Positions 1 to 49,631 of a stretch of DNA of 51,240 nucleotides are shown here, one piece after another. The position numbers were made by a program, and so were the translations under genes. The notes under the pieces are model-generated. The model worked only from the letters and a program-made list of their open reading frames with translations. It was not told the DNA's origin and searched no databases. The stretch is from Entrophospora sp. SA101 (Eukaryota; Glomeromycota; Glomeromycetes; Entrophosporales; Entrophosporaceae), in contig CAUDNR010001247.1 of NCBI GenBank assembly GCA_958430865.1, forward strand, positions 1 to 51,240. Reading direction: 5' to 3'. How positions within the stretch are numbered: the stretch's first letter is position 1; every line of letters begins with the position of its first letter.

Positions 1-498
1 AAATGTGTCACGTTTCTAATGTAAATATTTATGTACCACCCCGATGTTACACATGACTTCGGAGTAATTTGTTACAACTGCTCAAAAATCCGCTATACCG
101 AGATTAGTATTGATAGTAAATCGTTATTATTATAGATCTCGATCCGTTTAATGTGTTTTATTCAGAAATTCGCTAAATCGAGGTCTGTTGAATTGTGTAT
201 ACTTTTTTATTTATAATTGCCCGCGTTCATATTGATCACGTTCTGCAATAATTTCAAAAAACAATTTAAATTTTTACCAAAATTATCCACCCAAGGAGAA
301 TATAATTACCAGCACAAAACCTTGATAATTATTACGTTGAATTATTTCGATAAAAAGAAAAAGTGTTGTTGGTCAACCTTGCATTGGAATTTTAATATAA
401 TGCGTTGGATTTTAATAATGATACTTGCATGCTTCAATCGAATATGTATTTTAACTCCAATTAATCTTTTATTTTATTTTAATGTTTTTGAATCATAG

Positions 499-569
499 AA
501 TTGATAGGATTGGCCGAAGAGGGTAGAGTAGTTATTGCTAAAAGATATGGTGATGATAAAGATGTTTAA
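499..569 (+). CDS. C-terminal exon of an unrecognised gene
   Basis: After a possible acceptor (CATAG ending at 498) there is a short open stretch reading LIGLAEEGRVVIAKRYGDDK and ending in TAA at 567-569. A canonical AATAAA poly(A) signal follows at 588-593. The amino-acid composition is protein-like and differs from the surrounding AT-rich noise, so I read it as the last exon of a gene whose other exons lie upstream of the window. I do not recognise the family. The earlier open frame at 217-498 lacks an ATG start and does not look like protein. Confidence 0.3.
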
Positions 570-971
570 AAGGCCTTATTATTTTAAAATAAAGTTGAGG
601 CTTTGTATATATCAATTATTATATACCATAAATAGATCATTTATGGGACAAGCGTTGAAATGTTACACTAATATTTTATATTGTGCAACGTAGCTTTACA
701 ATACACGGCAAACATTATGGCAATAATAATAAAAGTAAGTGATAAACTGGATTTGAATTGGATCTGAACTTGACCTCCAATTTAGAGAGGTAACAACTAT
801 ATACTGGTGGGTTTTCAGTTCTGTATATCTTTTCGTGTAACAACAACTTCCACTATGCTTGTGGGACATTCATAAAAAAAAAAAATTCTAAATTGAAAAT
901 AATAAATTTTTACATTTCTATAAATCTATTACTATTATTAACATTACTATTATTATTAGCTGGTTGGTTAG

Positions 972-3900
972 TTGTCGGTCATGAATTCGTTATTTAGTGG
1001 ATCTGATGCCAATAAAATTATTGTTGGTACTAAATCCACAAAATTCTATGCAATTGATCCTACAACCAAAAAGTTGATAAAAACATTTGATAATAATGAA
1101 AGAGATAATGAAAACGAATGTCCTTTTTTACCTAAAGATGCTTTATACATTTGCATGAATGGTAAATATTCATATTATATTATTATTAGATAATTTCTAT
1201 AAAATGTAAAAAAAAAAATTACCATGTATATATATATATATAATGATAATGATAATTAATAAATTTAGCATATAAAATACGAATTTTTGAAAATGGAATA
1301 ACGAAACGAAATGTAACTTATACCGAATACATTCCACATAGCTATGACACAAGTATTGAATTAATACATAAAACGAAACCACATAATAATGATTTATACA
1401 TTGCAGCTCCAAATGGTGATATATTATCAACTAATTCTTATTCTAGTAAGAAAGATCTTCTTTTTGTATTTATATATAACAATGATAATTATTACCGTTT
1501 TTAATATTTCATATCTAATAAATATGATTTAAAATAAAAAGCTCGAAACGAATGGCATCAAGTACTTCGATCTCCTGTTGTTGGACTTTTTGATTCTTTT
1601 TCTTCCTCGCCTGAATACATATCACCAGCACAACCATCATCGTTACCACCACCACCACCACCATCATTATCATTACCAACATCATTATCAAATGAACTTT
1701 TAAAGTTAAAAGTGGATAATAATGATGACGAAACTTGTCAACTTGGTTCACCATTATATCCAAGCTGTCTAATCGGAAATAATAATGATTATGATGATGA
1801 TAATTATTTGATAAACAATGAAGAGCATATTTTTAGATTAGGTATCGAAGGTCCATCACCCCTCTCTTCGCCATCGTCTTCATCACCTTCATTAGAAAAT
1901 AATTATTCCTCTTCTGCTTCTCCTTCGATAGATAAAGCTGATTCCATTATTAGTTTAACACGTATTGGATTCTCGTTATTCAGTATTATTTTATTGATTT
2001 TTATTGGTATTATTTATTGGAACAAGTATAATAATAAAAATGGCAGACATTTTTTTAACAAATTATCGTTGACTCCATTACTTGGAACAATTGCACAAAA
2101 GTATAATGATTTTAATGAAACCTTTTTTAGTGACGATAGTAGTGGCAATGGTATTAACCAAGTAAAATCCAATAAAAAAGAAGTTGGTAATAAAAAGAAA
2201 AAGAAAGGTAACAAAAACCATAATCATAATAATATTAATGCAAATAATAAGAAAGTCGAGCTTAAAAATGATGATTTGAAAATAAATGGCACTACAACTT
2301 CTAATAAAGAAACAACAATAACAAATAACAATAATAGTCAAAATTTAGATGTTAACCTTCCTACTTCAACTATTGAAAACAATGCATCATCTAACATTTC
2401 CACTGCTGTAGTTAATGGCGAGTTTAAATTAAATTCTTTAGTAATTACAGATACCGTTTTAGGTGACTTATATATTTATTTTTGAAAAAATTTATTTTAT
2501 TATTACATGATCATTATTAAACTATATAAATAAATATATATATATACACATATATACATACTAGGTTATGGAAGTCATGGTACCATTGTATATAAAGGAA
2601 GCTTTGAAGGAAAAGAAGTAGCTGTAAAACGGTTACTGCTTGATTTTTATGATATAGCACATCACGAAGTATCATTGCTTCAAGAAAGTGACGATCACCC
2701 AAATGTTATAAGATACTATTGCAAACAACAATGTGACCGTTTCTTATATATTGCACTGGAACTTTGTCCTGCTTCTTTACATGATTTTATAGAAAGAGGT
2801 TCGATGTTTGAACATGCGCATCTGATAGAGTCATTACACCCATCAAAAATCCTTTATCAAATTATTTCTGGTCTACATCATCTCCACTCTATCAAACTGG
2901 TACATCGAGACATCAAACCACAAAATATTCTAATAGCTGCTTCAAAACACAAGAAAACAATCAAAAAGAAAGGTGTGATTGTTTATGAAAAATCGAAAAT
3001 CAGAGTGCTGATTTCTGATTTTGGATTATGCAAAAAGTTAGAAGGGGATTCAAGTAGTTTTCACAATACTGCAAACAACATCGGAGGTACGATTGGCTGG
3101 AGAGCGCCAGAGTTGTTATCACACACATCATTATCATCATCACCAGACAACAATACTACAGCAGCAGATGCATGGACATCCGTGGACCAATCAAATTGTT
3201 CTTTTACATCGTCAGGATCATTGAATAGTGAAGAAGATTGTCCACGCAGAATCACAAAAGCAATAGATATTTTCTCCGCAGGTTGCTTATTTTATTATGT
3301 GTTGTCCAGAGGATGTCATCCATTTGGAGACCGGTATTCCAGAGAAATAAATATATTGAAAGGAGTATACGATTTAAATAAATTGGATGATATAGAAAAG
3401 GAAGGCATCGAGGCTAGAGATTTGATTGAAAGGATGATCGAGCGTGATCCTGAAAAAAGGTAACTTTTTTATTTGTTATTATTAATTATTATTATGGATT
3501 ATTAAAAAATCAATAATATGTGTATAGGCCAAATGCGGAAACAGTGATGACGCATCCATATTTTTGGTCGTCGTCTAAACGACTTGGATTTTTACAAGAT
3601 GCGTCTGATAGATTTGAGATAGAGGAAAGAGATCCACCATCACCGTTACTTAATCGTCTTGAGCAAGATTCCAGTAAAATAATAGGTACTGATTGGTACA
3701 AACGTATAGATAAAATTTTAGTGGAGAATCTTGGTAAATATAGAAAATATGATGGAGCCAAAATAAGGGACTTATTACGAGCTTTAAGAAACAAGGTTTG
3801 TATATTCATTTATATATTTATTTTAATTAAATAAATAAAATAAATAAATGAAATAAATAATCTCAATTCTAATTTCTTTAGAAAAATCATTATCAAGATC

Positions 3901-4073
3901 TTCCAGATCATGTAAAAAGATCGCTTGGAGAGATCCCAAATGGATTCCTTTTTTATTTTGTTTCAAGATTCCCAGAACTTATGCTACATGTTTATTACGT
4001 GATAGCAGAGTCGGAATCTTTAAAGAATGAAAATATATTCAGTCATTATTTTGAAATACCGGGAGAAATATAA
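972..4073 (+). CDS. IRE1: IRE1-type unfolded-protein-response kinase/endoribonuclease, 5' part not visible
   Basis: Six exons can be joined in frame: 972-1161, 1269-1445, 1542-2462, 2565-3459, 3528-3795 and 3882-4073. Together they make 2643 nt, 880 codons plus TAA. The order matches the ER stress sensor Ire1: luminal sensor (IIVGTKSTKFYAIDP, then RSPVVGLFDSF and CQLGSPLYPSCLIGN), one transmembrane helix near residues 262-283, an Asn/Lys-rich linker, then a kinase domain from about residue 430. The kinase has the glycine loop GYGSHGTIVYKG, Lys in AVKR, HRDIKPQN, DFGL and GWRAPELL. The C-terminal RNase (KEN) domain keeps the catalytic Arg, Asn and His in RALRNKKNHY, and an intron splits this motif. 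The known role of the family is cleavage of HAC1/XBP1-type mRNA at the ER. The first supported exon starts after TTAG at 971, mid-luminal domain; no signal peptide or first 100 or so luminal residues are visible upstream. The luminal domain also seems short after RSPVVGLF. Family confidence is high; completeness is doubtful. Confidence 0.88.
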
Positions 4074-4432
4074 AAGAACAATTTTTCTAAAAAATTCTAA
4101 TTTAAAAAAAGAAATTTATAGACTTGTTATATATCATATTGCTGTTTAAGGCTTCTTGATTTAGTTAGTTTTAAATCAATATTATATTTATTTATTGTTA
4201 TTATTATTTGTTATTTATTGTTTGTAAATATTAATTTTCGTTGTTAAATTAATTAATTCTTTTTTTTTTTTTTGTAAATAGAAATTTTTTTTTAATAAAA
4301 ATTTATTTCATATTAATTAAAATATACAACAATTATTATTATTATTAGTATTAATAGAAGAAAAAAAAATTTAAATATTAAGGTTTAAAGAAAATAATTG
4401 TCTGTCGTATTTGTTTGCCTTTCACTTACAAT

Positions 4433-5299
4433 TTAAATAGAATTCCTTCTGACATTATTTGATCTGCTATTAACATTATTATTGTTACTATTCTTTCTTT
4501 TACTTAATTTGTTTTTTAATCCACCAAACAAATTTCTTTTTGTCTTTTGATTAACATTACCATTTGTATTATTAATGTTCCTTTCGTTTAATTGTTGATT
4601 TTGATTTAATTGATACAATCGTTGTTTTTCATATGTCATGATATAATCTGTTAATGAGGAGATTGTGTTATAAGTTCCCAATGGAAAATCATAAAAATTT
4701 GAAATTAGGGAGGTTTTTATTGGAACTTTATGATATCTATGTTTTACGCTTGCAGGTTTTGTTATAACAATATCATTATTAGTTGTATTATTACTATTTG
4801 TATTCTTGTTGTTCTTGTTGTTATTATTGTCATTATTATCAGTTGGCATTAGAACTGTTGAAGTAGTAGTTGTTATTGGATTAGTAGTTATTGATTGCCT
4901 TCGTGATTTAAATGAGTATTCATTATAAATATTATTATTATTATTATTAACATTATTATTGATACTATTGATACTAATACTATTACTATTATTATTATTA
5001 CTATTATTATTGCTTTCTTCTATATTTTTATCTTTTATACTGGGAAAATAATTAGATTGTTGTATTTCTTCTTCTATTGATAAAATAGAAAGAGGTGAAG
5101 AAGATAAACGAAATAATGGTGAAGACATTGTAGTCATATTTGTTGTAGCCTGTTGCGATAAATCTATTGAAATAAAAGATTTATTATTACTATAATTGTT
5201 GTTGTAGTAGTTGTTAGCATCGACATCATTATAATCATCAACATCATTGTTAATGTTTTCATTACTATTATTATTATAATATAGATTGTTATTCTTCAT
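4433..5299 (-). CDS. Asparagine-rich protein of unknown function
   Basis: An uninterrupted 288-residue frame starts with ATG at 5299. The N-terminal 170 residues are dominated by Asn, Asp and Ser runs. A more complex segment follows, with PASVKHRYHKVPIKTSLISN and a helix containing TDYIMTYEKQRLYQLNQNQQ. The end is basic (KRNLFGGLKNKLSKRKNS). No enzyme motif, signal peptide or membrane helix is seen. It is convergent with IRE1, with stop codons 360 bases apart. The non-repetitive C-terminal half and the length favour a real gene over a chance frame in trinucleotide repeats. Function unknown; a regulatory or intrinsically disordered protein is possible. Confidence 0.55.
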   Translation of the reverse strand: MKNNNLYYNNNSNENINNDVDDYNDVDANNYYNNNYSNNKSFISIDLSQQATTNMTTMSSPLFRLSSSPLSILSIEEEIQQSNYFPSIKDKNIEESNNNSNNNNSNSISINSINNNVNNNNNNIYNEYSFKSRRQSITTNPITTTTSTVLMPTDNNDNNNNKNNKNTNSNNTTNNDIVITKPASVKHRYHKVPIKTSLISNFYDFPLGTYNTISSLTDYIMTYEKQRLYQLNQNQQLNERNINNTNGNVNQKTKRNLFGGLKNKLSKRKNSNNNNVNSRSNNVRRNSI

Positions 5300-6757
5300 G
5301 ATTTATCCAATTTTATTTAAAAAAATTTTTTTATAAAGATTTATTATTTATTATTCACTTCTTTTTATATTTTTTTGGAAATTTGCATTTTGTTAATTTA
5401 ATTTATTTACTTTTTTACTACATACTAATATAATTATGTAATGTGTAATAATAAACAGTTCATCTCCGTTTATTTATAGTATAAGTGTTATACGTTTATA
5501 GGTAATGGTAGTAATTGTACATTTGAAGTATATAAAAAAAATACAGGTTTGTAAAAAATTATTAAATAAATATTTTTAGAACCCGATGATCATAATCATA
5601 ATTGTATTAATTCAAAACACTAATATATACCAACAATGATTTTTTTTGCGATTTTTGGTAAAGCACCCTTATTATGCTATCTAAAAAGAAAAATATGTAA
5701 ATATAATATTCCCAATCTCGTCATTGTAGTGCAAATGGGAATATTCCTTGTGTTTCTTTTAGTCAAGTTCCGTGCTAAAGATTTTCTAAAGATGAGATAA
5801 AATTGAAGATAAAATTGAACATTTATCTATCTCGTAAGCATTTTTTAATACGATTTTACATTTCGCGTTTTGCATGAGTTAACTATAAATCATTGATTTA
5901 AGAGTACATATACATATACGTATACAATATAAATATGTGTTAATTAATTAATTAATCAATTAATCAATTGCTTTCATTCAAATTTTAATTTTATGGATCA
6001 CAAATCTCACATCTTCATATAAATGCCCATGTTCTATTGTAGACGTGATTTTTTAATTCATGTTCCAACGAGTAAAGGAAAAGGACAAAATTCTCAATTA
6101 ATACTTTCAGATAATTTTCTTTATTCATACCATTAAACTAGGTACAAATTAATATAAATTTCAATGGCCTAACAAATGAAAAAAATTTTATTGAATTTTC
6201 TTTTCGACAAATATATTTGTTTTTCTGATGATGTTAACATAATATGGGCATACTGTAACAAGATATTTTGTCACTAAATGTTACAATCACACTTGGTAAT
6301 AGTAATAGTATAGTGATTTGTGATCTTAATATTAAATTAGATGATTTTAATTTTCAGTGACTATATTAGAAAAACAATCAAAGAAAAATCAAACTTGAAA
6401 ACCGGTATTTTTTTTCCACTAAGAATTATATAATGGAAAATATTGTAGTCTTTCAGAAAATTTTGGCTTTAGAGATGTTGATATTCTCAATCTCATTTTT
6501 AGATTTAGTCACGAACCAAAAAAAAACCAAAAATGCAAGCTTTTATGTCTCACTATTGCAATATTGATTTTTAATTCTTTTAATGTAGTAATTATAAAAC
6601 CTAAAAAAAGTTATATCTGCTATTCATAATCATATTTATCATCATAATTTCCTTTATTATTTGAAATATTGTTTTTATATTCATCAACAGCTTTGTCAAA
6701 TCTTCATTTTTAAGTCAGAGACAGTAGTTTTAACATGATTACATTTGTAATCAGGAA
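5300..6757. other. AT-rich intergenic stretch
   Basis: No coding sequence is visible. It contains the presumed promoter of the Asn-rich gene and a small hairpin with 10-bp arms (AATATTCCCA at 5705-5714 and its complement at 5736-5745). From base 6002 on, this stretch begins to differ from the second copy at 34154, whereas the preceding 6001 bases look identical. Confidence 0.5.
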
Positions 6758-6913
6758 TAAGGTTGTGGGCAAAACTCCACCAGAAATCAATCAACAGAGT
6801 TTTGACAGGTTACACATTAATTGTTTTGTCAATCGCCAGAGTTTTGACACGGTTTATACTAATTGTTCATTGGAGTTTTGACAGTCATTAAGTGGTTTTG
6901 GCAAGCAACCTTA
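6758..6913. mobile_element. hAT-like MITE, family 1 (156 bp)
   Basis: The ends are inverted (TAAGGTTGTGGGCAAAAC at the left; TAAGGTTGCTTGCCAAAAC reading inward from the right). The element is flanked by an imperfect 8-bp duplication, ATCAGGAA at 6750-6757 and ATCAAGAA at 6914-6921. The TAAGG start and the 8-bp target site fit hAT elements. The inside repeats AGTTTTGACA several times and has no coding capacity. Related copies lie at 35064-35219 (same site in block B), 36907-37098 and 51087-51240. Confidence 0.8.
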
Positions 6914-6921
6914 ATCAAGAA

Positions 6922-9111
6922 GAATGTAAATTTTATTTTTATCAGTAATACTGTAGCTGCTTTTTTTTTATTATTGTTGGATTATCACCAATAAGATATT
7001 GAAAGCCAGGATATTTTCTTTAACTTCATCTAAAGGACAGTCAGAATGAATTTCATTTATATAGAGGAAAATACGTATGGCTTTTTTTATTTTTACCTAT
7101 GATTTTCCTATGATCTACCTTTTAAAAAGACTATTTTTTACCCATTTTTTTCCATATGACCTCAATTATGATTACTTGTGGTGCTGTTATAGCAATAAAA
7201 TTATCAATTTAGGTAATAAACAGCTTAGTCAGCTTAGGATTTTTAAATGGCTAACATCACTAGTCAAAGACATAATTCTATGTTTACACAAAAGACATAA
7301 TTTTATGATTCTATGTCATTGACATTACTAATTAATTGAATTGTATATAAGAAGCTTGAATTTGATGTTAATAATAAGTTAATAAATTAGTTTCAACTAA
7401 ATAAACAAACATTTTGTTAAATCAATAAACCAAAATTATCTATTCATCGATAAAAACTAATTCATTAATATTCTGAGACACAAATGTCCGACTTATTAAG
7501 AGATCTGACTTATCAAAATATGCAATTTTACAAAAAAAAAATCACTATTCATTATCTAAATAAAAAATTACTAAATTAAATTATTTTTTATTTAAATCAA
7601 TAATTGAGTTCAATGTCAATATTTTGATGTGGATGACAAAACATGAGTCTTGTTGTTTGGTATGGCTCTCATAAAGAAGAAGTGTTAATAACTAACCAAT
7701 GGTACTTTTTTTTACTTGTATAGATATGTATTTTTTTAGTATTATAAATATTTTAATTAGAATCAAAATGCGGAATAGAACTTGGTAATTTATAAGTTTC
7801 TTATAAGATTCTCATCAAGATTTGCTTTTGCTTTTCGTAATTTTTATTAATATTAATATTATTATAATTAATTACAAGTTGTCAAGGCAGCATACTGTTG
7901 AAAAAGGAACATTTTGATATTGGATGTTTGATTATTGGAAATTAGCAGATGTTGAAGCATACACACTACCTTGAACACTTTACAGTCATTCTCACACATT
8001 TCTTGTGTACATAAGGCTAATCTGACTACTGTGTCCTGATGATACAATGATGTGGCTCTGAGATTTACCAAGACTGCATCAATTGTCAATGACACTTTCA
8101 CTAATATTTTCTCACAGCACCCAGACTGGAGAAAGCTGCTGGCATGCTGGCTGAAAAGTTGCCTGCAATGATCCTACCTCTAGGGTAAGGATTGGTGTAA
8201 AATAGTGTTTGTTTAGTATAATTATTTTCCTAAATTCTCTGTTTCTTTAATACTAACCAATTTATAATTTTGGGTAGGGGATTGAATGGGTTATTTCCCC
8301 TGTCCTATAGATTAAAATTATCGCATGTTTATATATATCTTGTCAGCAACATGACCAACAAGAAAAAGTCATAAAATGGTTTTGATTTTGGTATGTTATG
8401 TTATAAATTAATCATTCCCATAAATTTTGTTTCTTTTGATTTTTATTTGACCAACTGAACTTGTTATTTAAATGGGGTAGAGTTGTTAGTGAGTAGACAT
8501 GCCACTGACAAGACAGCAACCCAGGTCACAACCTTCCAAGTTGGAGAATTTTGAATCAGTTGCAGACACCAACTTTATTCTAGAGGGTGATAACACAAAG
8601 CAAACATCACACAAGCACCAGCTATCAGTTATCAATGCCCATATGGTAAACAACCAAGCCTGGCCTGAGAGAAGATAGGGAAAGTTTTGTCCAAAGCCTT
8701 CCAACATGTTCAGGGTGCTTTCACCCATTGGGGGCACTCCATGGTACTGAAAGGTACTTAATTGTGCAGACCAGCATGTTTGTGATAGGAAAATTTTAAT
8801 TAAATCTGACACCTGCAATCAACACCAGATTTATCACTCATAGGGAACAATCAGGAAAAATAATTTATTTTGTGAATCCCAGAGATCTGGGTAGACACAC
8901 ATTATTAAAAGTTTTATTTTGCATGGCCTTGGTATTATTACTACTTGGGTGATGCAATTGTTTGTTATGTCAATCATAACATCAAATATATTGAATAATA
9001 ATCATTATGAATATTTGATGGATGGAGGCATTCACATACAAGTAAGTGATTAAATAGCTAAGTCATGTTTGTTTTATTAAAGATATATAATTAATTATAT
9101 TTAAAATATAC
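6922..9111. other. Gene-free stretch with an old dispersed repeat
   Basis: No convincing gene. The part 7740-7890 is related, in opposite orientation, to 38170-38345 (shared GCTGCCTTGACA, CTTGTAATTA and ATTACGAAAAGCAAAA), so it belongs to a dispersed repeat. Bases 8100-8820 are less AT-rich than their surroundings and contain minus-strand frames of 77 and 110 codons (8101 to 7868 and 8818 to 8486) without recognisable domains; they may be remnants of a mobile element. The whole stretch recurs inverted in block C. Confidence 0.4.
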
Positions 9112-9443
9112 AATCCCTATAAAAAATTTGGCATGGAAATGTATGGGAAAATGCATGGAATTTGTATGGAAAGATGCGAATTTCAGGTAAAATTCCATGC
9201 ATTGTTGTACAGAAAAGTACAGGAAAATTTCTCTGAAAATGTATGGAAAATGCACGGAAGGTGCAATTTCCTTGCATTTTCCATGCATTTTCCAATTATT
9301 TTTTTGAATAGAAAATACAGAAAATACCTGGAAAATGTCCGGAATCTGCGTCTTCTGTACATTCTCCATACATTTTCAAGGGATTTTCCTGTACTTTTCT
9401 GTAAAATTCCATGCAGTTTTCCTGTAACAAACTTCGAAATAAT

Positions 9444-9722
9444 ATGTCGCACAAATGGCATTTAATTTTATTACCATATTTGGTAAGAGGAATTCATTTT
9501 TTTTTATCGTTTAATTTAAGTTACTTGGCAATCGGGATTTTTGGTGAAGAATTATACATATTATTATTATTATCATCATTATTATTTTTATTAAGAAAAG
9601 TGGATATTATATTGTTATGTTATATTGTGGGGATTATAATCATATTATTATTTTTATTAATATTATTTATAATTAAGAAGTTATCTTTAAATTATGATCA
9701 ATACTTTCCGGGAAGTCTATAA
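9444..9722 (+). CDS. Possible small membrane protein inside the TIR element
   Basis: A 92-codon frame from ATG at 9444 (MSHKWHLILLPYLVRGIHFF) is made of three strongly hydrophobic stretches and ends NYDQYFPGSL. The diverged copy in block C (46605-46883, minus strand) keeps the whole frame with a few substitutions and an in-frame three-base deletion in the leucine run. That mild conservation is suggestive, but hydrophobic frames arise easily in T-rich DNA. Function unknown. Confidence 0.25.
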   Translation: MSHKWHLILLPYLVRGIHFFLSFNLSYLAIGIFGEELYILLLLSSLLFLLRKVDIILLCYIVGIIIILLFLLILFIIKKLSLNYDQYFPGSL

Positions 9723-9923
9723 GCTTCCATACAATATATAGATTATATATTTATTTATTTTCTTACGATTTATATTTTATTTTAAGAATTGTGTTTTTAT
9801 TATTTAAAGATGTAAAATTCAAACAAATAAAGATAACTTTTATATCAGTTTATTAACAGTGTTAAATAATATCTAAACGTTTGTAAATAATTGTGATAAT
9901 TATTTGAACGTTTACATTTCCAC

Positions 9924-10100: not shown

Positions 10101-10493
10101 TTTTCCACACAGTTTTCCGTACATTTTCCCATACATTTCTGTGCCAATTTTTTATAGGGAATAAAAAAATTGCAAGACTGCACTTCACTTAAGTTTTTTC
10201 TAACATACATATTAATATTTTATTTATAGAAGGTATTTTGATTCGTATTTAAATCTTTTACCGAACACAACTTTATTTCTTTTCATTCCCCATTTATATT
10301 GACATGTAAAACTTGCTTTTTCAATTATAATAAACACTTATTGTGTATGAATTTGATTTATTTATTTTTGCTTCCTACATTGTAAAATAAACATTATCAT
10401 TTGCATGAGAACTTTATGCAATGTAAAAATTATAATAGCCAATAAAAGATAAAGTAAAAAGAAGTGTACAATTTATAATATTACAAACAAAAA

Positions 10494-12264
10494 TTAAAGA
10501 AGAGCAAATACAGCCTTATTTACTATTTAAAATAAAACAAAATTAATCAACAATTAATATGTTTTCAAAAACAATGATATTGACTATAATGATAGTGTAA
10601 TGATGAAAATACTTACAGACTTATTCATTATTTAAATAAAATAAAAATTAATAGTTAGTGTGTTTTTAAAAACAATGATATTGGCTTTAATAATAGTAAT
10701 GATGAAAATGCTTACTTTCTATTTACTATTTAAAATCAATCAACAGTTAATAATATGTTTCAAAAACAATGATATGACTGTAATGGTAGTAATGATGAAA
10801 ATATTTGTAGGCTATTTATTATTTAAAATAAAATGAGAACCAATCAGCAGTTAATATGTTTTTAAAAACAATGATATTCACTTTAATAATGGTAAATGAT
10901 GAGAATACTTACTTGCTATTCATTATTTAAAATAAAACAGGAATCAATCAACAGTTAATATGTTTTCAAAAACAATGATATTGAGTATAATGATAGTAAT
11001 GATGAAAAAACTTACAACCTATTTATTATTTAAAATCAATCAACAGTTAATATGTTTTCAAAAACAATTGGCTGTAATAATAGTAAATGATGAGAATACT
11101 TACTTGCTATTTATTATTTAAAATAAAACAGGAATCAATCAACAGTTAATATGTTTTCAAAAACAATGATATTGTGTATAATGATAGTAATGATGAAAAT
11201 ACTTACAACCTATTTATTATTTGAAATCAATCAACAGTTAATATGTTTTCAAAAACAATGATATTGAGTATAATAATAGTAAATGATGAGAATACTTACT
11301 CCCTATTTATTATTTAAAATAAATCAACAGTTAATATGTTTTCAAAAACAATGATTGATATTGACTGTAATAATGGTAAATGATGAGAATACTTACATTC
11401 TATTCATTATTTAAAATAAAATAAAAATTAGCAGTTAATATGTTTTCAAAACAATGATATTGAATGTAATGATAGTAATGATGAAAATACTTACAGACTA
11501 TTCATTATTTAAAATAAAGTAAAAATTAGCAGTTAATATGTTTCAAAAACAATGATATTGACTGTAATGATAGTAATGATGAAAATATTTACAGACTATT
11601 CATTATTTAAAATAAAGTAAAAATTAGCAATTAATATGTTTTCAAAAACAATGATATTGAGTGTAATGATGAAAATACTTACTCCCTATTCATTATTTAA
11701 AATAAAGTAAAAATTAGCAGTTAATATGTTTTCAAAAACAATGATATTGACTGCAATAATAATAAAATGATGAAAATACTTACTCCCTATTCATTATTTA
11801 AAATAAATCAACAGTTAATATGTTTTCAAAAACAATGATATTGACTGTAATGATAGTAATGATGAAAATACTTACAGGCTATTCATTATTTAAAATAAAA
11901 CGAGAATCAATCAACAGTTAATATGTTTTCAAAAACAATGATATTGACTGTAATAATAGTAACTTACCACTCTATTTATTATTTAAAATAAAATGAAAAC
12001 AAATAATTAATATGTTTTCAAAAACAATTATATTGACTGCAATAATAATACAAAAATACTTACGGAACTATTCATTATTTAAAATCAAATGAAACCCAAT
12101 AGTTAGCATTTTTTCAAAATCAATGATATTTGACTATAATGATGTTTATTGCAATAGTTAAATGAAATACCTCGCTCCTCTAAATTATTGTTAATACCCA
12201 TTGGACTTGCTAAAACAACGACAGCAAAGATAACCAAAAAGAGAAGAGAAATATTGAATTTCAT
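10494..12264 (-). CDS. Predicted secreted peptide gene assembled from single-codon exons
   Basis: Exon 1 (12264-12171, 94 nt) starts ATG and encodes a textbook signal peptide, MKFNISLLFLVIFAVVVLA, then SPMGINNNLEER and one extra G before a GTATTT donor. Downstream, tandem introns of 85-103 nt beginning GTAAGT and ending AATAG or AATAAG are separated by tiny exons: TTCC (12067-12064), AGTG (11971-11968), then 3-nt exons ending at 11876 Pro, 11784 Gly, 11683 Gly, 11593 Ser, 11495 Ser, 11397 Asn, 11300 Gly, 11207 Val, 11104 Gln, 11016 Val, 10913 Gln, 10716 Lys and 10617 Ser. One further unit (CCT, 10811-10809) has lost its donor (GTAAGT is ACAAAT). The last exon begins at 10514 and reads AVFALL then TAA (10496-10494). 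The two 4-nt exons together restore the frame left by exon 1, and all later exons keep it. The total is 162 nt, 53 codons plus stop. Known: micro-exon genes occur in other eukaryotes. Inference: splicing really joins these exons; no transcript was seen. Function unknown. Confidence 0.6.
10515..12170 (-). repeat. Tandem array of about 16 intron-like units
   Basis: The units are 88-107 bp and share, on the minus strand, GTAAGTATTTTCATCATT, then AATATCATTGTTTTTGAAAA, CATATTAACTG with possible branch sites (CTAAT or TTGAT), and TTTTAAATAATGAATAG. They vary by small deletions in the middle and before the acceptor, but the donor and acceptor ends are well kept. The only place that changes in a codon-sized way is the triplet between the acceptor of one unit and the donor of the next. 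Confidence 0.85.
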
Positions 12265-12330
12265 TTTTGATTTGTTCAGTTAATTCTTAGCAAATTTTGG
12301 TTTTTTTTCAAATTGTACGCAGTTGAGAAA

Positions 12331-12337
12331 TTTATAA
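12331..12337 (-). promoter_or_regulatory. Candidate TATA box of the micro-exon gene
   Basis: TTTATAAA reads on the minus strand about 70 bases upstream of the ATG at 12264. In such AT-rich DNA this could be chance, but the distance is suitable for a promoter with a short leader. Confidence 0.3.
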
Positions 12338-12339
12338 AA

Positions 12340-13282
12340 AATTTATCGTAAATCAGTTATTTAGAATTTTGGTTATTCTTCGATTAAACAAGAAATTGAT
12401 TGTTGATCGTGAATGGGCTGTGTGCCGTGTATCATACATAAAGTGAATAATGTAACGACAACGACAATAAACAACAAAGAAAGAAAAAAATACAAATGGT
12501 TATTTACTTTTAGGCGTGTATCGAAGATAAACGGAAATGACCAACTTCATTATAAATAACCATAAGAAAATTAATTAATACTCGATCGTTTTTTAATTCT
12601 ATAATGGCAAAATGCCCATTTTAATTATAAATCTTGTTATATTAATATGCGGAAACAAAAATTTTATTTAATTACCATAATAGTCACAGGACATGTCACA
12701 TCAATTGATTTCTATATTATTATGTGAAAATTAGTTTTTTTAAAATATCTCATTATTTTTATAATAAACTCGAACATCGTTGTTAGAGTAAAATGAAAGT
12801 ATTCCATTAAAGCTTTCTAATCAATACTTTTTTATATCGAAAGCTCTTCCATGCATGAATTCACAGCTATTCAAAAACGGTATTACTTTTTCACTTCAAA
12901 GCTCAGATTATTTCTCAATATTGCTTTAAAAGGTTTGATAGTAAATGAGAAGGTGTAGAATACTTTAAGCTTTCATACGGTCATTACTTTATGGGAAGTA
13001 TTGGTTAATAAGTTTTAGAGAGGCTTACGAAAAAATATTTTATAAAAATTTAATAGTCATGAAGAATTTTTGTAGATGGGATTCAGCAAAAACTAAAAGG
13101 TATTTTATTAGATTGTTTTATATTTCTGACTTTATATTGATTAAAGTTTCATTAATGATTATTATGAATATCTATCAATCAGTAATTGTTATAGCAACAT
13201 TAAACAATAATATTAGTAGCAATAAATAGCAAACGACAATAACGAATCATCGTTTTTTGAGGATGATAATAAAGATTAAGAT
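12340..13282. other. Intergenic stretch, no gene seen
   Basis: AT-rich sequence upstream of the micro-exon gene. I see no open frame of interest, no clear terminal inverted repeats and no tandem array in it. Confidence 0.4.
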
Positions 13283-13737
13283 CCAGTTTGTGTAAGAGTG
13301 ATCGAAGTAAGCATTAAGAACAAGATCTATGAACAAAATATAATAACGAACGTTTTATTAATAATTCAATAGTTTATGTAGGAGTGATCAAAGTAAGCAT
13401 TAAGGACAAGATCTATGAACAAAATATAATAACAAACGTTTTATTAATTATTCAATAGTTTATGTAGGAGTGATCGAAGTAAGCATTAAGGGCAAGATCT
13501 ATGAACAAAATATAATAACAAACGTTTTATTAATTATTCAATAGTTTGTATAAGATCTATGAACAAAATATTCTAACGAACGTTTTATCAATTATTCAAT
13601 AGTTTGTGTAGGAGTAATCGAAGTAAGCTTTAAGGACAAGATCTATGAACAAAATATTCTAACGAACGTTTTATTAATTATTCAATAGTCTGTATAGGAA
13701 TGATCGAAATAAGCGTTAATGGCAAGATCTATGAAGC
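13283..13737. repeat. 86-bp tandem repeat array
   Basis: About five units carry AGTTTATGTAGGAGTGATC, AAGTAAGCATTAAG, CAAGATCTATGAACAAAATA and AACGAACGTTTTATTAAT. One unit near 13545 is internally deleted. A stray piece of the same unit (ATGTTTTATCAATTATTCAA) is at 14300-14323, past an inserted element, so the array was interrupted. No coding frame runs through it. Confidence 0.8.
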
Positions 13738-28152: not shown

Positions 28153-28650
28153 AAATGTGTCACGTTTCTAATGTAAATATTTATGTACCACCCCGATGTT
28201 ACACATGACTTCGGAGTAATTTGTTACAACTGCTCAAAAATCCGCTATACCGAGATTAGTATTGATAGTAAATCGTTATTATTATAGATCTCGATCCGTT
28301 TAATGTGTTTTATTCAGAAATTCGCTAAATCGAGGTCTGTTGAATTGTGTATACTTTTTTATTTATAATTGCCCGCGTTCATATTGATCACGTTCTGCAA
28401 TAATTTCAAAAAACAATTTAAATTTTTACCAAAATTATCCACCCAAGGAGAATATAATTACCAGCACAAAACCTTGATAATTATTACGTTGAATTATTTC
28501 GATAAAAAGAAAAAGTGTTGTTGGTCAACCTTGCATTGGAATTTTAATATAATGCGTTGGATTTTAATAATGATACTTGCATGCTTCAATCGAATATGTA
28601 TTTTAACTCCAATTAATCTTTTATTTTATTTTAATGTTTTTGAATCATAG

Positions 28651-28721
28651 AATTGATAGGATTGGCCGAAGAGGGTAGAGTAGTTATTGCTAAAAGATAT
28701 GGTGATGATAAAGATGTTTAA
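28651..28721 (+). CDS. Second copy of the unknown C-terminal exon
   Basis: Same sequence as 499-569 including the downstream AATAAA. The same caution about identity of the gene applies. Confidence 0.25.
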
Positions 28722-29123
28722 AAGGCCTTATTATTTTAAAATAAAGTTGAGGCTTTGTATATATCAATTATTATATACCATAAATAGATCATTTATGGGA
28801 CAAGCGTTGAAATGTTACACTAATATTTTATATTGTGCAACGTAGCTTTACAATACACGGCAAACATTATGGCAATAATAATAAAAGTAAGTGATAAACT
28901 GGATTTGAATTGGATCTGAACTTGACCTCCAATTTAGAGAGGTAACAACTATATACTGGTGGGTTTTCAGTTCTGTATATCTTTTCGTGTAACAACAACT
29001 TCCACTATGCTTGTGGGACATTCATAAAAAAAAAAAATTCTAAATTGAAAATAATAAATTTTTACATTTCTATAAATCTATTACTATTATTAACATTACT
29101 ATTATTATTAGCTGGTTGGTTAG

Positions 29124-32100
29124 TTGTCGGTCATGAATTCGTTATTTAGTGGATCTGATGCCAATAAAATTATTGTTGGTACTAAATCCACAAAATTCTA
29201 TGCAATTGATCCTACAACCAAAAAGTTGATAAAAACATTTGATAATAATGAAAGAGATAATGAAAACGAATGTCCTTTTTTACCTAAAGATGCTTTATAC
29301 ATTTGCATGAATGGTAAATATTCATATTATATTATTATTAGATAATTTCTATAAAATGTAAAAAAAAAAATTACCATGTATATATATATATATAATGATA
29401 ATGATAATTAATAAATTTAGCATATAAAATACGAATTTTTGAAAATGGAATAACGAAACGAAATGTAACTTATACCGAATACATTCCACATAGCTATGAC
29501 ACAAGTATTGAATTAATACATAAAACGAAACCACATAATAATGATTTATACATTGCAGCTCCAAATGGTGATATATTATCAACTAATTCTTATTCTAGTA
29601 AGAAAGATCTTCTTTTTGTATTTATATATAACAATGATAATTATTACCGTTTTTAATATTTCATATCTAATAAATATGATTTAAAATAAAAAGCTCGAAA
29701 CGAATGGCATCAAGTACTTCGATCTCCTGTTGTTGGACTTTTTGATTCTTTTTCTTCCTCGCCTGAATACATATCACCAGCACAACCATCATCGTTACCA
29801 CCACCACCACCACCATCATTATCATTACCAACATCATTATCAAATGAACTTTTAAAGTTAAAAGTGGATAATAATGATGACGAAACTTGTCAACTTGGTT
29901 CACCATTATATCCAAGCTGTCTAATCGGAAATAATAATGATTATGATGATGATAATTATTTGATAAACAATGAAGAGCATATTTTTAGATTAGGTATCGA
30001 AGGTCCATCACCCCTCTCTTCGCCATCGTCTTCATCACCTTCATTAGAAAATAATTATTCCTCTTCTGCTTCTCCTTCGATAGATAAAGCTGATTCCATT
30101 ATTAGTTTAACACGTATTGGATTCTCGTTATTCAGTATTATTTTATTGATTTTTATTGGTATTATTTATTGGAACAAGTATAATAATAAAAATGGCAGAC
30201 ATTTTTTTAACAAATTATCGTTGACTCCATTACTTGGAACAATTGCACAAAAGTATAATGATTTTAATGAAACCTTTTTTAGTGACGATAGTAGTGGCAA
30301 TGGTATTAACCAAGTAAAATCCAATAAAAAAGAAGTTGGTAATAAAAAGAAAAAGAAAGGTAACAAAAACCATAATCATAATAATATTAATGCAAATAAT
30401 AAGAAAGTCGAGCTTAAAAATGATGATTTGAAAATAAATGGCACTACAACTTCTAATAAAGAAACAACAATAACAAATAACAATAATAGTCAAAATTTAG
30501 ATGTTAACCTTCCTACTTCAACTATTGAAAACAATGCATCATCTAACATTTCCACTGCTGTAGTTAATGGCGAGTTTAAATTAAATTCTTTAGTAATTAC
30601 AGATACCGTTTTAGGTGACTTATATATTTATTTTTGAAAAAATTTATTTTATTATTACATGATCATTATTAAACTATATAAATAAATATATATATATACA
30701 CATATATACATACTAGGTTATGGAAGTCATGGTACCATTGTATATAAAGGAAGCTTTGAAGGAAAAGAAGTAGCTGTAAAACGGTTACTGCTTGATTTTT
30801 ATGATATAGCACATCACGAAGTATCATTGCTTCAAGAAAGTGACGATCACCCAAATGTTATAAGATACTATTGCAAACAACAATGTGACCGTTTCTTATA
30901 TATTGCACTGGAACTTTGTCCTGCTTCTTTACATGATTTTATAGAAAGAGGTTCGATGTTTGAACATGCGCATCTGATAGAGTCATTACACCCATCAAAA
31001 ATCCTTTATCAAATTATTTCTGGTCTACATCATCTCCACTCTATCAAACTGGTACATCGAGACATCAAACCACAAAATATTCTAATAGCTGCTTCAAAAC
31101 ACAAGAAAACAATCAAAAAGAAAGGTGTGATTGTTTATGAAAAATCGAAAATCAGAGTGCTGATTTCTGATTTTGGATTATGCAAAAAGTTAGAAGGGGA
31201 TTCAAGTAGTTTTCACAATACTGCAAACAACATCGGAGGTACGATTGGCTGGAGAGCGCCAGAGTTGTTATCACACACATCATTATCATCATCACCAGAC
31301 AACAATACTACAGCAGCAGATGCATGGACATCCGTGGACCAATCAAATTGTTCTTTTACATCGTCAGGATCATTGAATAGTGAAGAAGATTGTCCACGCA
31401 GAATCACAAAAGCAATAGATATTTTCTCCGCAGGTTGCTTATTTTATTATGTGTTGTCCAGAGGATGTCATCCATTTGGAGACCGGTATTCCAGAGAAAT
31501 AAATATATTGAAAGGAGTATACGATTTAAATAAATTGGATGATATAGAAAAGGAAGGCATCGAGGCTAGAGATTTGATTGAAAGGATGATCGAGCGTGAT
31601 CCTGAAAAAAGGTAACTTTTTTATTTGTTATTATTAATTATTATTATGGATTATTAAAAAATCAATAATATGTGTATAGGCCAAATGCGGAAACAGTGAT
31701 GACGCATCCATATTTTTGGTCGTCGTCTAAACGACTTGGATTTTTACAAGATGCGTCTGATAGATTTGAGATAGAGGAAAGAGATCCACCATCACCGTTA
31801 CTTAATCGTCTTGAGCAAGATTCCAGTAAAATAATAGGTACTGATTGGTACAAACGTATAGATAAAATTTTAGTGGAGAATCTTGGTAAATATAGAAAAT
31901 ATGATGGAGCCAAAATAAGGGACTTATTACGAGCTTTAAGAAACAAGGTTTGTATATTCATTTATATATTTATTTTAATTAAATAAATAAAATAAATAAA
32001 TGAAATAAATAATCTCAATTCTAATTTCTTTAGAAAAATCATTATCAAGATCTTCCAGATCATGTAAAAAGATCGCTTGGAGAGATCCCAAATGGATTCC

Positions 32101-32225
32101 TTTTTTATTTTGTTTCAAGATTCCCAGAACTTATGCTACATGTTTATTACGTGATAGCAGAGTCGGAATCTTTAAAGAATGAAAATATATTCAGTCATTA
32201 TTTTGAAATACCGGGAGAAATATAA
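29124..32225 (+). CDS. IRE1: IRE1-type kinase/endoribonuclease, second identical copy
   Basis: Exons at 29124-29313, 29421-29597, 29694-30614, 30717-31611, 31680-31947 and 32034-32225 reproduce the first copy with all motifs (glycine loop, HRDIKPQN, DFGL, RNase RALRNKKNHY) intact and the same missing 5' part. Identity through introns suggests that the assembler placed one locus, or two unresolved haplotypes, twice rather than that two genes exist. Confidence 0.85.
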
Positions 32226-32584
32226 AAGAACAATTTTTCTAAAAAATTCTAATTTAAAAAAAGAAATTTATAGACTTGTTATATATCATATTGCTGTTTA
32301 AGGCTTCTTGATTTAGTTAGTTTTAAATCAATATTATATTTATTTATTGTTATTATTATTTGTTATTTATTGTTTGTAAATATTAATTTTCGTTGTTAAA
32401 TTAATTAATTCTTTTTTTTTTTTTTGTAAATAGAAATTTTTTTTTAATAAAAATTTATTTCATATTAATTAAAATATACAACAATTATTATTATTATTAG
32501 TATTAATAGAAGAAAAAAAAATTTAAATATTAAGGTTTAAAGAAAATAATTGTCTGTCGTATTTGTTTGCCTTTCACTTACAAT

Positions 32585-33451
32585 TTAAATAGAATTCCTT
32601 CTGACATTATTTGATCTGCTATTAACATTATTATTGTTACTATTCTTTCTTTTACTTAATTTGTTTTTTAATCCACCAAACAAATTTCTTTTTGTCTTTT
32701 GATTAACATTACCATTTGTATTATTAATGTTCCTTTCGTTTAATTGTTGATTTTGATTTAATTGATACAATCGTTGTTTTTCATATGTCATGATATAATC
32801 TGTTAATGAGGAGATTGTGTTATAAGTTCCCAATGGAAAATCATAAAAATTTGAAATTAGGGAGGTTTTTATTGGAACTTTATGATATCTATGTTTTACG
32901 CTTGCAGGTTTTGTTATAACAATATCATTATTAGTTGTATTATTACTATTTGTATTCTTGTTGTTCTTGTTGTTATTATTGTCATTATTATCAGTTGGCA
33001 TTAGAACTGTTGAAGTAGTAGTTGTTATTGGATTAGTAGTTATTGATTGCCTTCGTGATTTAAATGAGTATTCATTATAAATATTATTATTATTATTATT
33101 AACATTATTATTGATACTATTGATACTAATACTATTACTATTATTATTATTACTATTATTATTGCTTTCTTCTATATTTTTATCTTTTATACTGGGAAAA
33201 TAATTAGATTGTTGTATTTCTTCTTCTATTGATAAAATAGAAAGAGGTGAAGAAGATAAACGAAATAATGGTGAAGACATTGTAGTCATATTTGTTGTAG
33301 CCTGTTGCGATAAATCTATTGAAATAAAAGATTTATTATTACTATAATTGTTGTTGTAGTAGTTGTTAGCATCGACATCATTATAATCATCAACATCATT
33401 GTTAATGTTTTCATTACTATTATTATTATAATATAGATTGTTATTCTTCAT
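32585..33451 (-). CDS. Asparagine-rich protein, second identical copy
   Basis: Complete 288-codon copy of the frame at 4433-5299, with the same start, the same Asn/Ser runs and the same basic C-terminus. Copies with unequal Asn-repeat length would be expected between real paralogues because such repeats change quickly; here they are equal. Confidence 0.5.
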   Translation of the reverse strand: MKNNNLYYNNNSNENINNDVDDYNDVDANNYYNNNYSNNKSFISIDLSQQATTNMTTMSSPLFRLSSSPLSILSIEEEIQQSNYFPSIKDKNIEESNNNSNNNNSNSISINSINNNVNNNNNNIYNEYSFKSRRQSITTNPITTTTSTVLMPTDNNDNNNNKNNKNTNSNNTTNNDIVITKPASVKHRYHKVPIKTSLISNFYDFPLGTYNTISSLTDYIMTYEKQRLYQLNQNQQLNERNINNTNGNVNQKTKRNLFGGLKNKLSKRKNSNNNNVNSRSNNVRRNSI

Positions 33452-34477
33452 GATTTATCCAATTTTATTTAAAAAAATTTTTTTATAAAGATTTATTATT
33501 TATTATTCACTTCTTTTTATATTTTTTTGGAAATTTGCATTTTGTTAATTTAATTTATTTACTTTTTTACTACATACTAATATAATTATGTAATGTGTAA
33601 TAATAAACAGTTCATCTCCGTTTATTTATAGTATAAGTGTTATACGTTTATAGGTAATGGTAGTAATTGTACATTTGAAGTATATAAAAAAAATACAGGT
33701 TTGTAAAAAATTATTAAATAAATATTTTTAGAACCCGATGATCATAATCATAATTGTATTAATTCAAAACACTAATATATACCAACAATGATTTTTTTTG
33801 CGATTTTTGGTAAAGCACCCTTATTATGCTATCTAAAAAGAAAAATATGTAAATATAATATTCCCAATCTCGTCATTGTAGTGCAAATGGGAATATTCCT
33901 TGTGTTTCTTTTAGTCAAGTTCCGTGCTAAAGATTTTCTAAAGATGAGATAAAATTGAAGATAAAATTGAACATTTATCTATCTCGTAAGCATTTTTTAA
34001 TACGATTTTACATTTCGCGTTTTGCATGAGTTAACTATAAATCATTGATTTAAGAGTACATATACATATACGTATACAATATAAATATGTGTTAATTAAT
34101 TAATTAATCAATTAATCAATTGCTTTCATTCAAATTTTAATTTTATGGATCACGAATCTCACATCTTCATATAAATGCCCATGTTCTATTGTAGATGTGA
34201 TTTTTTAATTCATGTTCCAACAAGTAAAGGAAAGGACAAAATTCTCAATTAATACTTTCAGATAATTTTCTTTATTCATACCATTAAACTAGGTACAAAA
34301 CAATTGTAAAATTAATATAAATTTCAATGGCCTAACAAACAAAAAAAAATTTAATGAATTTTCTTTTTGACAAATATATTGTTTTTCTGATGATGTTAAC
34401 ATAATATGGGTATACTGCAACAAGATATTTTGTTGCTAAATGTTACAATCATACTTGGTAATAGTAATGGTTATAGT

Positions 34478-42899: not shown

Positions 42900-45800
42900 G
42901 AGATGTGAGGTTGTTTAGTATTAAATTGCTTTTGGTTATACATAATAGGTTTTTTGGTGATGTGAAGTTGAATGTGAATGTATTGTATAATGTTTCATTA
43001 GGTGTATTTTTTGATAAGTTAATTTTATTTTTAATATACTGATGTAAGAAGATTCCAGCTTCTTCATTTCTCTTTTATTAAATGTTATAATCTGCACTAA
43101 GTATTCTAGAATAGGATTGAGACATTTATTAAATAGGCATGACAACTGGTCTGGTTTTACTTTTTTGAACATTAATAAATTGTTAAAGTGTGAGATTTTA
43201 TCAAAAATTTTTTGTTTGGTTGGTTTTGTTGTAATATATATGCCAAGGTATCAGATGGTGTTGCTTTTTGGCATTTGTTGGATAACTGTGCTATCATCTA
43301 GTATTGATGTATCCTTATTATTGATGATTAGCAGGCCTGATTTGTTCCAATTAACTTTTATATTATTAATTTTATACAAGTGGTTTACAGCAGATGCGAT
43401 TCTTTCTATTCCTTCCTTTGATTTACTAATAAAGATTGTGTCATCCATGAAAGCTAAAGGTGGATTTTTGTGGAGATACTATGGTGATTATTTGGCATAT
43501 TTATTTGTTCAAGTGAAGTTGTTTTAATTGTTAATAGGTCTGTTTCATAATTGTTGGTAATATGTGCTAAAATAGGGTCATAAAATATTTTCCATATAAT
43601 TGGTGAGAGTGGATCACCTTGTTCAATACCTGATTGAATGGTTATTGGCTCTGTTAGTCCTGATGGTGTTATAATTCTAGTTTGTCAGTCAGTCAGTAGG
43701 TATATATACCAGTCTATAAAATTTTGAGGTAAGTTGATACATTTTAATGCTATTTTAAGTCTTTGATGGTCTACATTATCAAAAGCTTTTGACATGTCTT
43801 GAAAAAAATGTATGAAGGTAATTTTATGTTGATTGACATGTTCTATGGTATTGTTAAGAATTTGTATTGGTGTTATTGTTGATGTATATTTTTCAGCTGC
43901 AAAGTTGTGACCTTTCAATAAATTAAAATTTCTTATTTTTTCTTCTAATCTATTTGTGATCAGCTTGGTTAGTATTTTTTTACATGGTTCCATTATAACT
44001 ATAGGTCTAGTTTTGTTTAGGTCATATTCCCAGTCTTCCTTTTTTGGTATTGGGTATAGATAAGACATCTTCCATTTATCTGGAATTTTTTTGGTTGTTG
44101 GGCCTTTAGAAAAGAGTTCAGGATCAATTTGTGTATTTCTCTATCTGCATGTATGAAATGTTCATGTTTAAATTGGATGGACCTGCTGCTTTGTTCTTTG
44201 GTAGCTGTTTTATGACCCTTTCAATATCTTCAAGTGATGGTGGATTTAAAATGTTCATTAAGATAGATGGGTCATTGAATGGTTCATATGTTTCTTCAAA
44301 CTGGTTTGTTTTTTTATTGTAATGAGTGAATATTGTAGTAATTTATGGTCTGATTTAATAGATGTTTCTGTTGGTGGTAATATATTTTGTATCATTCCCA
44401 TGAGTTCCTTACTGATCCATATCATATCAATACAACTGCTTGAATTTGATCTTTTCCATGTATGTGGGGTATCTTGAATATACGTGAAGTCAAAACTATT
44501 TTGACCATTTGCAGATCTGGTCAAAATAGGGTCGAAATAAGGTCGAAACCGATTTTTACTATGTAGTTGCTTCAAGTTGAAACATTCGGCTTTGGGGTTT
44601 TAATTTCGACCTCATGTATAATCTTGAAGTGATTGTAGCTTATATATATCTATGAAATTATTGTTACTGAAGTATTTTAGAAGATTAAATTCTTTTTTCC
44701 ATTTGGAATTCTATCTATTGATGGGTTATATACTGCATTATAGTCTCCCATTATAATTGTGAGAGTTTTATTATCATTATTATGTGTGATCCATTCAATT
44801 ATGGTATCTATAGTTTTTTTCCTTTCCTCCTTTTTTTTCTTTTGTGGGTATGTAGATTTGTATTATATTTAACTTTAATCTTTTAAGCAAAAGAGTAACA
44901 CATATTAAGTGGGGTGAATGTTTTGAGACTTTAACAATATGTTTAGCTGTTTCTGTTTTGATAATAAAACCAACCCCTCCTTTATTGGCATTACCATATG
45001 GATTTTGGCTGTTGCTCCAATAACTTTGATAATTCCTTTGTTGTGTATAAGCTTTATATTTCACTATATCTTGCTTCTTGATTTGAAAGATGCATTTCAG
45101 ATATTCCAAAAATGTCAATGTTTAATTTTATTAGTTCATTATATAAATTGGTTTGTTTGTGTATATCTTTAAGTCCATTTAAGTTTTGTGTTGCTATTTT
45201 AATTTTAGATATTTTTTCAATGTCTTTTATGTTGTGTTCTGTTAATGTTTTAAAAATGTATTTGATATATCATTTGTGTGTGATAATAGTGGTTGATTGT
45301 TGTTTAATTTGTTGTTTTTGTTTTTGTTTGATAGTGATTGTAGATTTTGTTGATTGTATATTAGAAAATAATTGAATCTCAGCCTGGATCTGGGATTGGT
45401 GGAAGATTAATAAATGTGTCTGGGAGGTATTTGAAGATGTAAAGTTTTTTTAAGATTGGGTTGTTTGATAAATTTTTTTGTCATCAGTAATAGGTATTGT
45501 AATTTCTACGTTATAATTGTTAAGTTCTTTTGTTATTGTTAAATCAAGTAACTGTTTTTTTTCTATGTTTGGTATTATAATTTTGGTATCATTTTCTAAA
45601 ACAGATGTATCAATATTGTCATTTGCCTTTTCTATTGATATCCACTCATCAGGTATCCTTTCAAAGAAATATTTTTTACTTAGCTTTATTACCATATTTT
45701 TTATATTAGTTTTGTTTGTAATCGGCAGAATTTTTTCTTCATTTAACATGAATTGAACATCCAGTTCCTTGATGTTTTTAGGAAGAAGAGGTTTATTTTT

Positions 45801-49407: not shown

Positions 49408-49631
49408 ATTGATAAAATAGAAAGAGGTGAAGAAGATAAACGAAATAATGGTGAAGACATTGTAGTCATATTTGTTGTAGCCTGTTGCGATAAATCTATT
49501 GAAATAAAAGATTTATTATTACTATAATTGTTGTTGTAGTAGTTGTTAGCATCGACATCATTATAATCATCAACATCATTGTTAATGTTTTCATTACTAT
49601 TATTATTATAATATAGATTGTTATTCTTCAT
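49408..49631 (-). pseudogene. 5' fragment of the Asn-rich gene
   Basis: The first 76 or so codons of the Asn-rich frame (MKNNNLYYNNNSNENINN onward to SSPLSILSIEE) are identical to block A and then run across the fold-back junction into the unrelated CKFYFYQ and a stop. It is cut by the junction, not by mutation. Confidence 0.8.

Follow-up and report, generated by a model that had tools for sequence, protein, structure and literature searches.

The window, by which we mean the whole 51,240-nt stretch of DNA that was analysed, carries on its minus strand a member of what appears to be a hypervariable family of secreted peptides, and we estimate a probability of about 85% that the mature part of these peptides is assembled from single-codon exons by ordered splicing, as the sequence predicts. 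When the predicted exons of the window gene (L037) are joined from 12264 down to 10494, they give one open frame, MKFNISLLFLVIFAVVVLASPMGINNNLEER-VPVPGGSSNGVQVQKS-AVFALL*, whose thirteen triplets read, in order, CCT GGA GGA TCT TCT AAT GGA GTT CAA GTT CAA AAA TCT (Table 1). Re-deriving the structure in the window reproduced the layout proposed by the sequence-only reading, namely a signal-peptide exon, two 4-nt and thirteen 3-nt predicted exons and a last exon, all in a single frame to the stop. Its description of the repeat unit needed some correction: the length of 85 to 103 nt fits all introns save one of 194 nt, which holds a dead unit whose skipping leaves the frame unchanged; the GTAAGT-type starts are general except for the first donor (GTATTT), one GTAAAT and one GTAAGC; and the AATAG ends are general except for the last two acceptors, which are AATAAG. 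The array scores 1508 in Tandem Repeats Finder. Just upstream of the gene lies an 86-bp tandem repeat (window 13285-13735).

Table 1. Features of the window gene, listed in the direction of its reading
Feature	Positions	Strand	Length
Exon 1: start codon, signal peptide, pro-segment MKFNISLLFLVIFAVVVLASPMGINNNLEER; phase 1 at its end	12171..12264	-	94 nt
Predicted intron 1, GTATTT...AATAG, a positional class of its own	12068..12170	-	103 nt
Predicted 4-nt exon TTCC	12064..12067	-	
Predicted 4-nt exon AGTG; brings the frame to phase 0	11968..11971	-	
Predicted single-codon exon CCT (P)	11876..11878	-	
Predicted single-codon exon GGA (G)	11784..11786	-	
Predicted single-codon exon GGA (G)	11683..11685	-	
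Predicted single-codon exon TCT (S), donor GTAAAT	11593..11595	-	
Predicted single-codon exon TCT (S)	11495..11497	-	
Predicted single-codon exon AAT (N)	11397..11399	-	
Predicted single-codon exon GGA (G)	11300..11302	-	
Predicted single-codon exon GTT (V)	11207..11209	-	
Predicted single-codon exon CAA (Q)	11104..11106	-	
Predicted single-codon exon GTT (V)	11016..11018	-	
Predicted single-codon exon CAA (Q)	10913..10915	-	
Dead unit: CCT, then ACAAAT in place of a donor, within the 194-nt intron	10809..10811	-	
Predicted single-codon exon AAA (K), donor GTAAGC	10716..10718	-	
Predicted single-codon exon TCT (S), acceptor AATAAG	10617..10619	-	
Predicted terminal exon GCTGTATTTGCTCTTCTTTAA = AVFALL + stop TAA	10494..10514	-	
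Entire tandem intron/micro-exon array	10515..12170	-	

The window gene belongs to a family within its genome, which was searched as a single assembly of 101 Mb in 2123 contigs. Exon 1 gave 63 listed matches at the protein level (E up to 1; weakest 0.02) and 40 scored matches among 61 candidates at the DNA level. From the 63 exon-1 matches listed, 36 loci were parsed, and every one of the 36 has micro-exon units downstream of exon 1, with 2 to 38 units per clean run; clean runs stop at the first irregular exon, so the tails are under-described. These loci contain a non-redundant set of 22 genes, whose clean runs comprise 341 predicted exons: 299 of 3 nt, 32 of 4 nt, 8 of 1 nt and 2 of 6 nt. Lead exons of 4+4, 4+1 or 1+1 nt take the frame from phase 1 at the end of exon 1 to phase 0 in 18 of the 22 genes, and the other four enter the array in a phase other than 0. 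Across the genome the pattern AATAGNNNGTAAGT occurs 521 times, compared with 314 occurrences of its reversal; most of the first 100 listed occurrences cluster at a spacing of about 100 nt.

The exon-1 frame ends with KR or RR in 30 of 36 loci. The pair is absent from L036, the window member (which has ER), L043, L059, L061 and the frame-shifted L010. The signal peptide of the family was judged by eye. Predicted tails range from 13 residues (L038) to about 40 and, again by eye, are rich in P, G and K or in C, D and W, depending on the subfamily. The predicted tails of L010 and L058 are Cys-rich and have the block CLANDCAEFC in common, while L065 and L066, whose heads differ, share the triplet run DLIEAHALNSSSCP, and L065 also carries a repeated three-unit block, VTNVTN. 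A further array with many GCG, GCT and GCA triplets, hence Ala-rich, lies at L014 (G000:C139:41500-48500), where the upstream part reads N and hides exon 1. As for the organism, the first exon of a methylthioribose-1-phosphate isomerase gene in the window has its top named matches in Funneliformis caledonium (52%) and Rhizophagus irregularis (51%), and the second part is 72% identical to R. irregularis; the genome looks like that of a Glomeromycotina-like fungus with no close relative among the matches listed.

In paralogues whose arrays differ, the frame set by exon 1 is retained along the array. Joined micro-exons of the 22 non-redundant genes contain no stop in the exon-1 frame (0/353 codons) versus 14/336 and 59/334 in the other two frames. 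Over all 36 loci the counts are 2/530 versus 19/504 and 85/500, and both exon-1-frame stops belong to L045, in which the first two micro-exons lack proper sites. Four more stops appear in L009 and L058 when their tails are read past the clean runs. Loci L063 to L067, which were fetched last and stood outside the splice-site training, with the exon-1 donor pattern widened by hand for two of them, show no frame-0 stop. For the 219 unique 3-nt exons of phase-0 arrays, 9.4 stops would be expected from the position-wise base composition of the 3-nt exons themselves, and none was found (P 7e-5); after thinning of near-copies the figure is 0/115 versus 5.2 expected (P 0.005).

Codon usage and composition agree with this frame. 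With a score trained on five window ORFs only (1007 codons, one ORF being Asn-rich) and expressed in bits per codon over intron triplets, frame 0 reached 1.44 and the other frames 0.17 and 0.07. Frame 0 scored best in all 17 genes scored, narrowly in L012 (1.32 versus 1.30) and by a small margin in L038 and L061. The triplets have 57% G+C at position 1 and 54% at position 2, while position 3 is 89% A/T, and the introns next to them have 19% G+C. Two genes, C65 and L061, enter their arrays in another phase and therefore act as a control for the frame test. Here TGA does occur among the triplets (2 of 17 unique ones), split across codons in the genes' own frame, and the T-rich base is the first, not the third (53% versus 12%, n=17). 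The weak point of the control is C65, which has two possible exon-1 donors: the frame from GTATTT meets a TGA and the frame from GTGAGT stays open. The choice fell on GTGAGT, which is closer to the consensus and corresponds in position to the GTAAGT of L061 and L063.

The way in which the arrays diverge also sets the triplets apart from the introns. Among 288 unique units, the exons measure 3 nt in 248, 4 nt in 28, 1 nt in 6 and other lengths in 6; the 214 array introns come in 30 different lengths with about 8 indel columns each. For pairs of units, which are not independent of each other, triplets differ at 48% of their bases where the introns are 2-5% diverged and at 61% where they are 5-8% diverged; in pairs at or below 8%, differences occur in 33% of comparisons at the fastest intron column and in 51-63% at the three triplet columns. 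At low divergence, triplets change about ten times as fast as introns. This fast change points to diversifying selection on single codons, a local mutational cause being a possible alternative. A non-coding repeat was also considered as the nature of the array and was set aside in view of the absence of frame-0 stops and of triplet composition, triplet divergence and codon usage.

One locus suggests an exchange between arrays. Introns 1 and 2 form clear positional classes and intron 3 a weak one, distinct from the array introns (11 genes). L036 (C1042:67131-67232) is a second copy, identical to the window gene over the 102-nt exon-1 query and located on the same contig, 55 kb away and beyond the window. 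The two are identical for the first 1000 aligned bases, which include about 600 upstream bases, exon 1, both lead exons and the first triplet, and fall to 79-91% in the next bins. Compared with L055 on another contig, L036 is below 100% before base 1000 and at 100% in each 100-base bin from base 1000 to the end of the alignment at 2900, through the array and the last exon. A crossover or conversion within an array intron would explain this mosaic; an assembly chimaera is possible. The joining of head and array leaves the frame of L036 intact because the units share one phase.

Intron starts are GTAAGT in 236 of 280 cases, intron ends are ATAG in 244 of 280, and TTAAC or CTAAC stands upstream of the end in 199 of 280, with a median distance of 37 nt for TTAAC. 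By eye, an ordinary intron in the window's isomerase gene likewise seems to begin with GTAAGT and to finish with CATAG. Pairing with U1 favours a G before the donor; the base at this place is T in 149 of 248 cases, for which the perfect GTAAGT may compensate.

We propose that splicing proceeds mostly 5' to 3' along the array, following transcription, and that each removal would add one codon to the upstream exon. The next GTAAGT would then be used with an exon of normal length already in front of it, the strong donor acting without exon-side pairing, and under such sequential splicing no 3-nt exon needs to be recognised from both sides. The two lead exons of 1 or 4 nt would set the phase. Since the array sites stand in one phase, units could be gained, lost and exchanged without frameshift. 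The zero-length exons of L045, L056 and L067 would be silent steps in the same stepwise splicing. The product would be secreted, and in most members a Kex2-type protease would cleave it behind the dibasic site. The hypervariable tail would then be the target of selection, probably as a signal to the plant or to a fungal partner.

Splicing may also be looser than this, with any donor joined to any later acceptor and an in-frame peptide library as the output of each gene. Such an extension of the ordered scheme is a minority possibility in our estimate. The array sites share their phase and nearly their sequence, so triplets could be skipped without frameshift, and the proteins of Schistosoma micro-exon genes (MEGs) are described as varied by exon skipping (PMC4015677); the Cys block shared by L010 and L058 instead suggests that order and completeness matter. 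In its widest and quite tentative form, the picture is that of a mycorrhizal-type fungus whose secreted-peptide repertoire gives almost every variable codon an exon to itself; recombination based on introns would move codon cassettes from gene to gene, single codons would be rewritten by diversifying selection, and splicing could pick subsets of them to make the in-frame libraries.

Of the 36 loci, 15 could be parsed as far as the shared last-exon motif at the 3' end, the remaining loci being cut, gapped or interrupted. At 8 of 36 (L036, L037, L038, L039, L043, L046, L047 and L055) A[VI]FAL or AVFALL followed by a stop ends the frame. Exon 1 itself carries a stop in L043 and L046, which leaves six loci, representing five distinct members (L036, L037, L038 = L039, L047 and L055), with a frame that stays open all the way from ATG to this A[VI]FAL stop. 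The frame of L044 continues beyond AVFAL, and L056 has a long hydrophobic read-on after AVFALW (by eye), which may be UTR. In L042, L052 and L053 the last exon is out of the array frame; exon 1 is frame-shifted in L010; and lead-exon splice sites are lost in L045 and L042, the latter lacking a lead-exon donor. A second subfamily has untidy 3' ends with zero-length exons and pieces of 7-18 nt. L057 and L058 carry a related end motif, ACTATATTCGCTCTTTGA, read by eye as TIFAL plus stop, after irregular exons. The zero-length exons, TAAAAG|GTAAGT and AATAG|GCAAGT, lie near the 3' ends of the arrays.

These ends bear on another explanation, which we regard as very unlikely: that the entire array is removed as one long intron, so that the triplets are leftover spacers and the product consists of the signal peptide and the last exon. 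The exon-1 donor and the last acceptor are usable for this, the skipped product of L036 would still close after a few codons (by eye), and the three last exons that are out of the array frame would fit as well. However, skipping would frame-shift the A[VI]FAL end of the eight loci that close with it, and unconstrained spacers should neither be free of stops solely in the exon-1 frame, nor match the codon usage of ORFs, nor be G+C-rich beside introns of 19% G+C. That introns duplicating in tandem spread into defunct copies of a gene for a secreted protein, leaving a decaying and unexpressed family, is hardly credible, for although lesions are present in L043, L046, L010, L045 and L042, the frame-0 signal extends across 22 genes, five distinct members (six loci) are fully open, and the triplets diversify rather than decay.

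Relatives outside this genome are few and come from environmental sequence. A protein search with one spliced peptide gave no match, and a profile built from 13 of the predicted peptides picked up two environmental proteins, P0121 and P0122; beyond the genome's own family, the single-peptide and profile searches gave no other homologue. P0121 (56 aa; JGI contig of 1024 nt) has the family signal peptide followed by RLPTVWCWDEQWAQWYDCRDPYVSE, and its tail is 44 bits closer to the micro-exon peptides than to intron translations. P0122 (ENA contig of 654 nt) has a tail 50 bits closer to intron translations; its exon 1 runs straight into intron 1, so it looks genomic, and by eye it matches the conceptual read-through of L048. 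P0121 looks as the cDNA of a sister gene would be expected to look, though its contig may be RNA or DNA and its end lacks AVFAL. The last 11 residues of P0121 lie outside all 57 of its matches in the genome, of which a few weak ones (57-61% identity) extend to residue 45, and a search of the genome for the W-C-W array with GTRAGT donors that P0121 would need found none. The earlier proposal of a secreted peptide spelled by single-codon exons thus gains support from the frame of the paralogues, the absence of stops, codon usage and an environmental homologue, the splicing itself being predicted. Rfam gave no match to window 10300-12500, and Pfam gave no real match, the best being MF_alpha_N in 3 of 13 members (E 0.049).

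Several known systems share single features with these genes. The exons of Schistosoma MEGs are larger and of mixed sizes (6-36 nt), and those of the aphid bicycle genes are longer and stand in no tandem intron array. Schistosoma MEGs form a gene family with a signal-peptide exon and many very small exons that encodes secreted variable proteins (PMC4015677). The fungal family is like them in having a signal peptide followed by many frame-neutral predicted micro-exons, and differs from these animal genes, as far as a comparison by description goes, in that 299 of 341 exons measure 3 nt and lie between tandem near-identical introns. Bicycle genes encode putative secreted effectors and have numerous small internal exons that share a phase (PMC9168663). 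Those exons of an animal family are almost all phase 2, whereas 18 of the 22 fungal genes run the array in phase 0.

Tiny exons as such are established in plants, where microexons of 1-15 nt include a 1-nt exon in APC11 and two adjacent microexons in a rice gene (PMC8831610). The proven 1-nt cases make single tiny exons possible; the plant microexons are conserved and, as described there, appear without arrays or hypervariability, whereas the predicted fungal ones are hypervariable and arrayed. Zero-nucleotide recursive splicing is a stepwise process that leaves behind, every time, a donor for the following step (PMC13149111). Zero-length junctions are likewise present in the sequence of some fungal arrays; recursive splicing in its known cases, however, subdivides long introns and adds nothing to the mRNA at zero-length sites, whereas the fungal steps would mostly add a codon.

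Among fungal systems, introner-like elements provide many near-identical spliceosomal introns per genome (PMC4457414) and sit in unrelated genes; the array copies analysed here are tandem and near-identical within one gene family. The SP7-like effectors of Glomeromycotina are a secreted family in which a conserved intron precedes the first repeat (PMC11333574); compared by description, they have hydrophilic protein repeats, and single-codon exons are not mentioned in that description. The putative signal peptide and the dibasic site before the predicted mature peptide, in 30 of 36 loci, recall fungal Kex2-processed peptide precursors, and mating-factor alpha precursors are distinguished by the lack of a significant MF_alpha_N match in the 13 members. 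The sequence-only reading had known of no described fungal system of this kind; our literature search in open-licence PMC papers, itself weak evidence, likewise showed none among the papers listed, where we saw neither a described gene family with such arrays nor an experimentally tested case of an equally long array of 3-nt exons. In the predicted design a gene would grow by an intron together with a single codon, a unit that none of the compared systems has.

If the genes are spliced as predicted, from one to several dozen successive micro-exons, mostly of one codon, would be handled in a way that goes beyond the usual expectations of the spliceosome. Intron arrays would then be codon cassettes that recombine without loss of frame, a new route to a hypervariable peptide, with a bearing on how tiny exons are recognised and on how AM fungi diversify their secreted signals. 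Ordinary gene finders are unlikely to detect such peptides, and secreted signals of symbiotic fungi may therefore be absent from annotations.

The window also holds large duplications of about 99.5% identity, which pair 1-6314 with 28153-34477, 6918-9852 with 46473-49407 (inverted) and 5064-6911 with 49394-51240. An ORF at 43685-44068 on the minus strand resembles, by eye, the reverse transcriptase of a mobile element.
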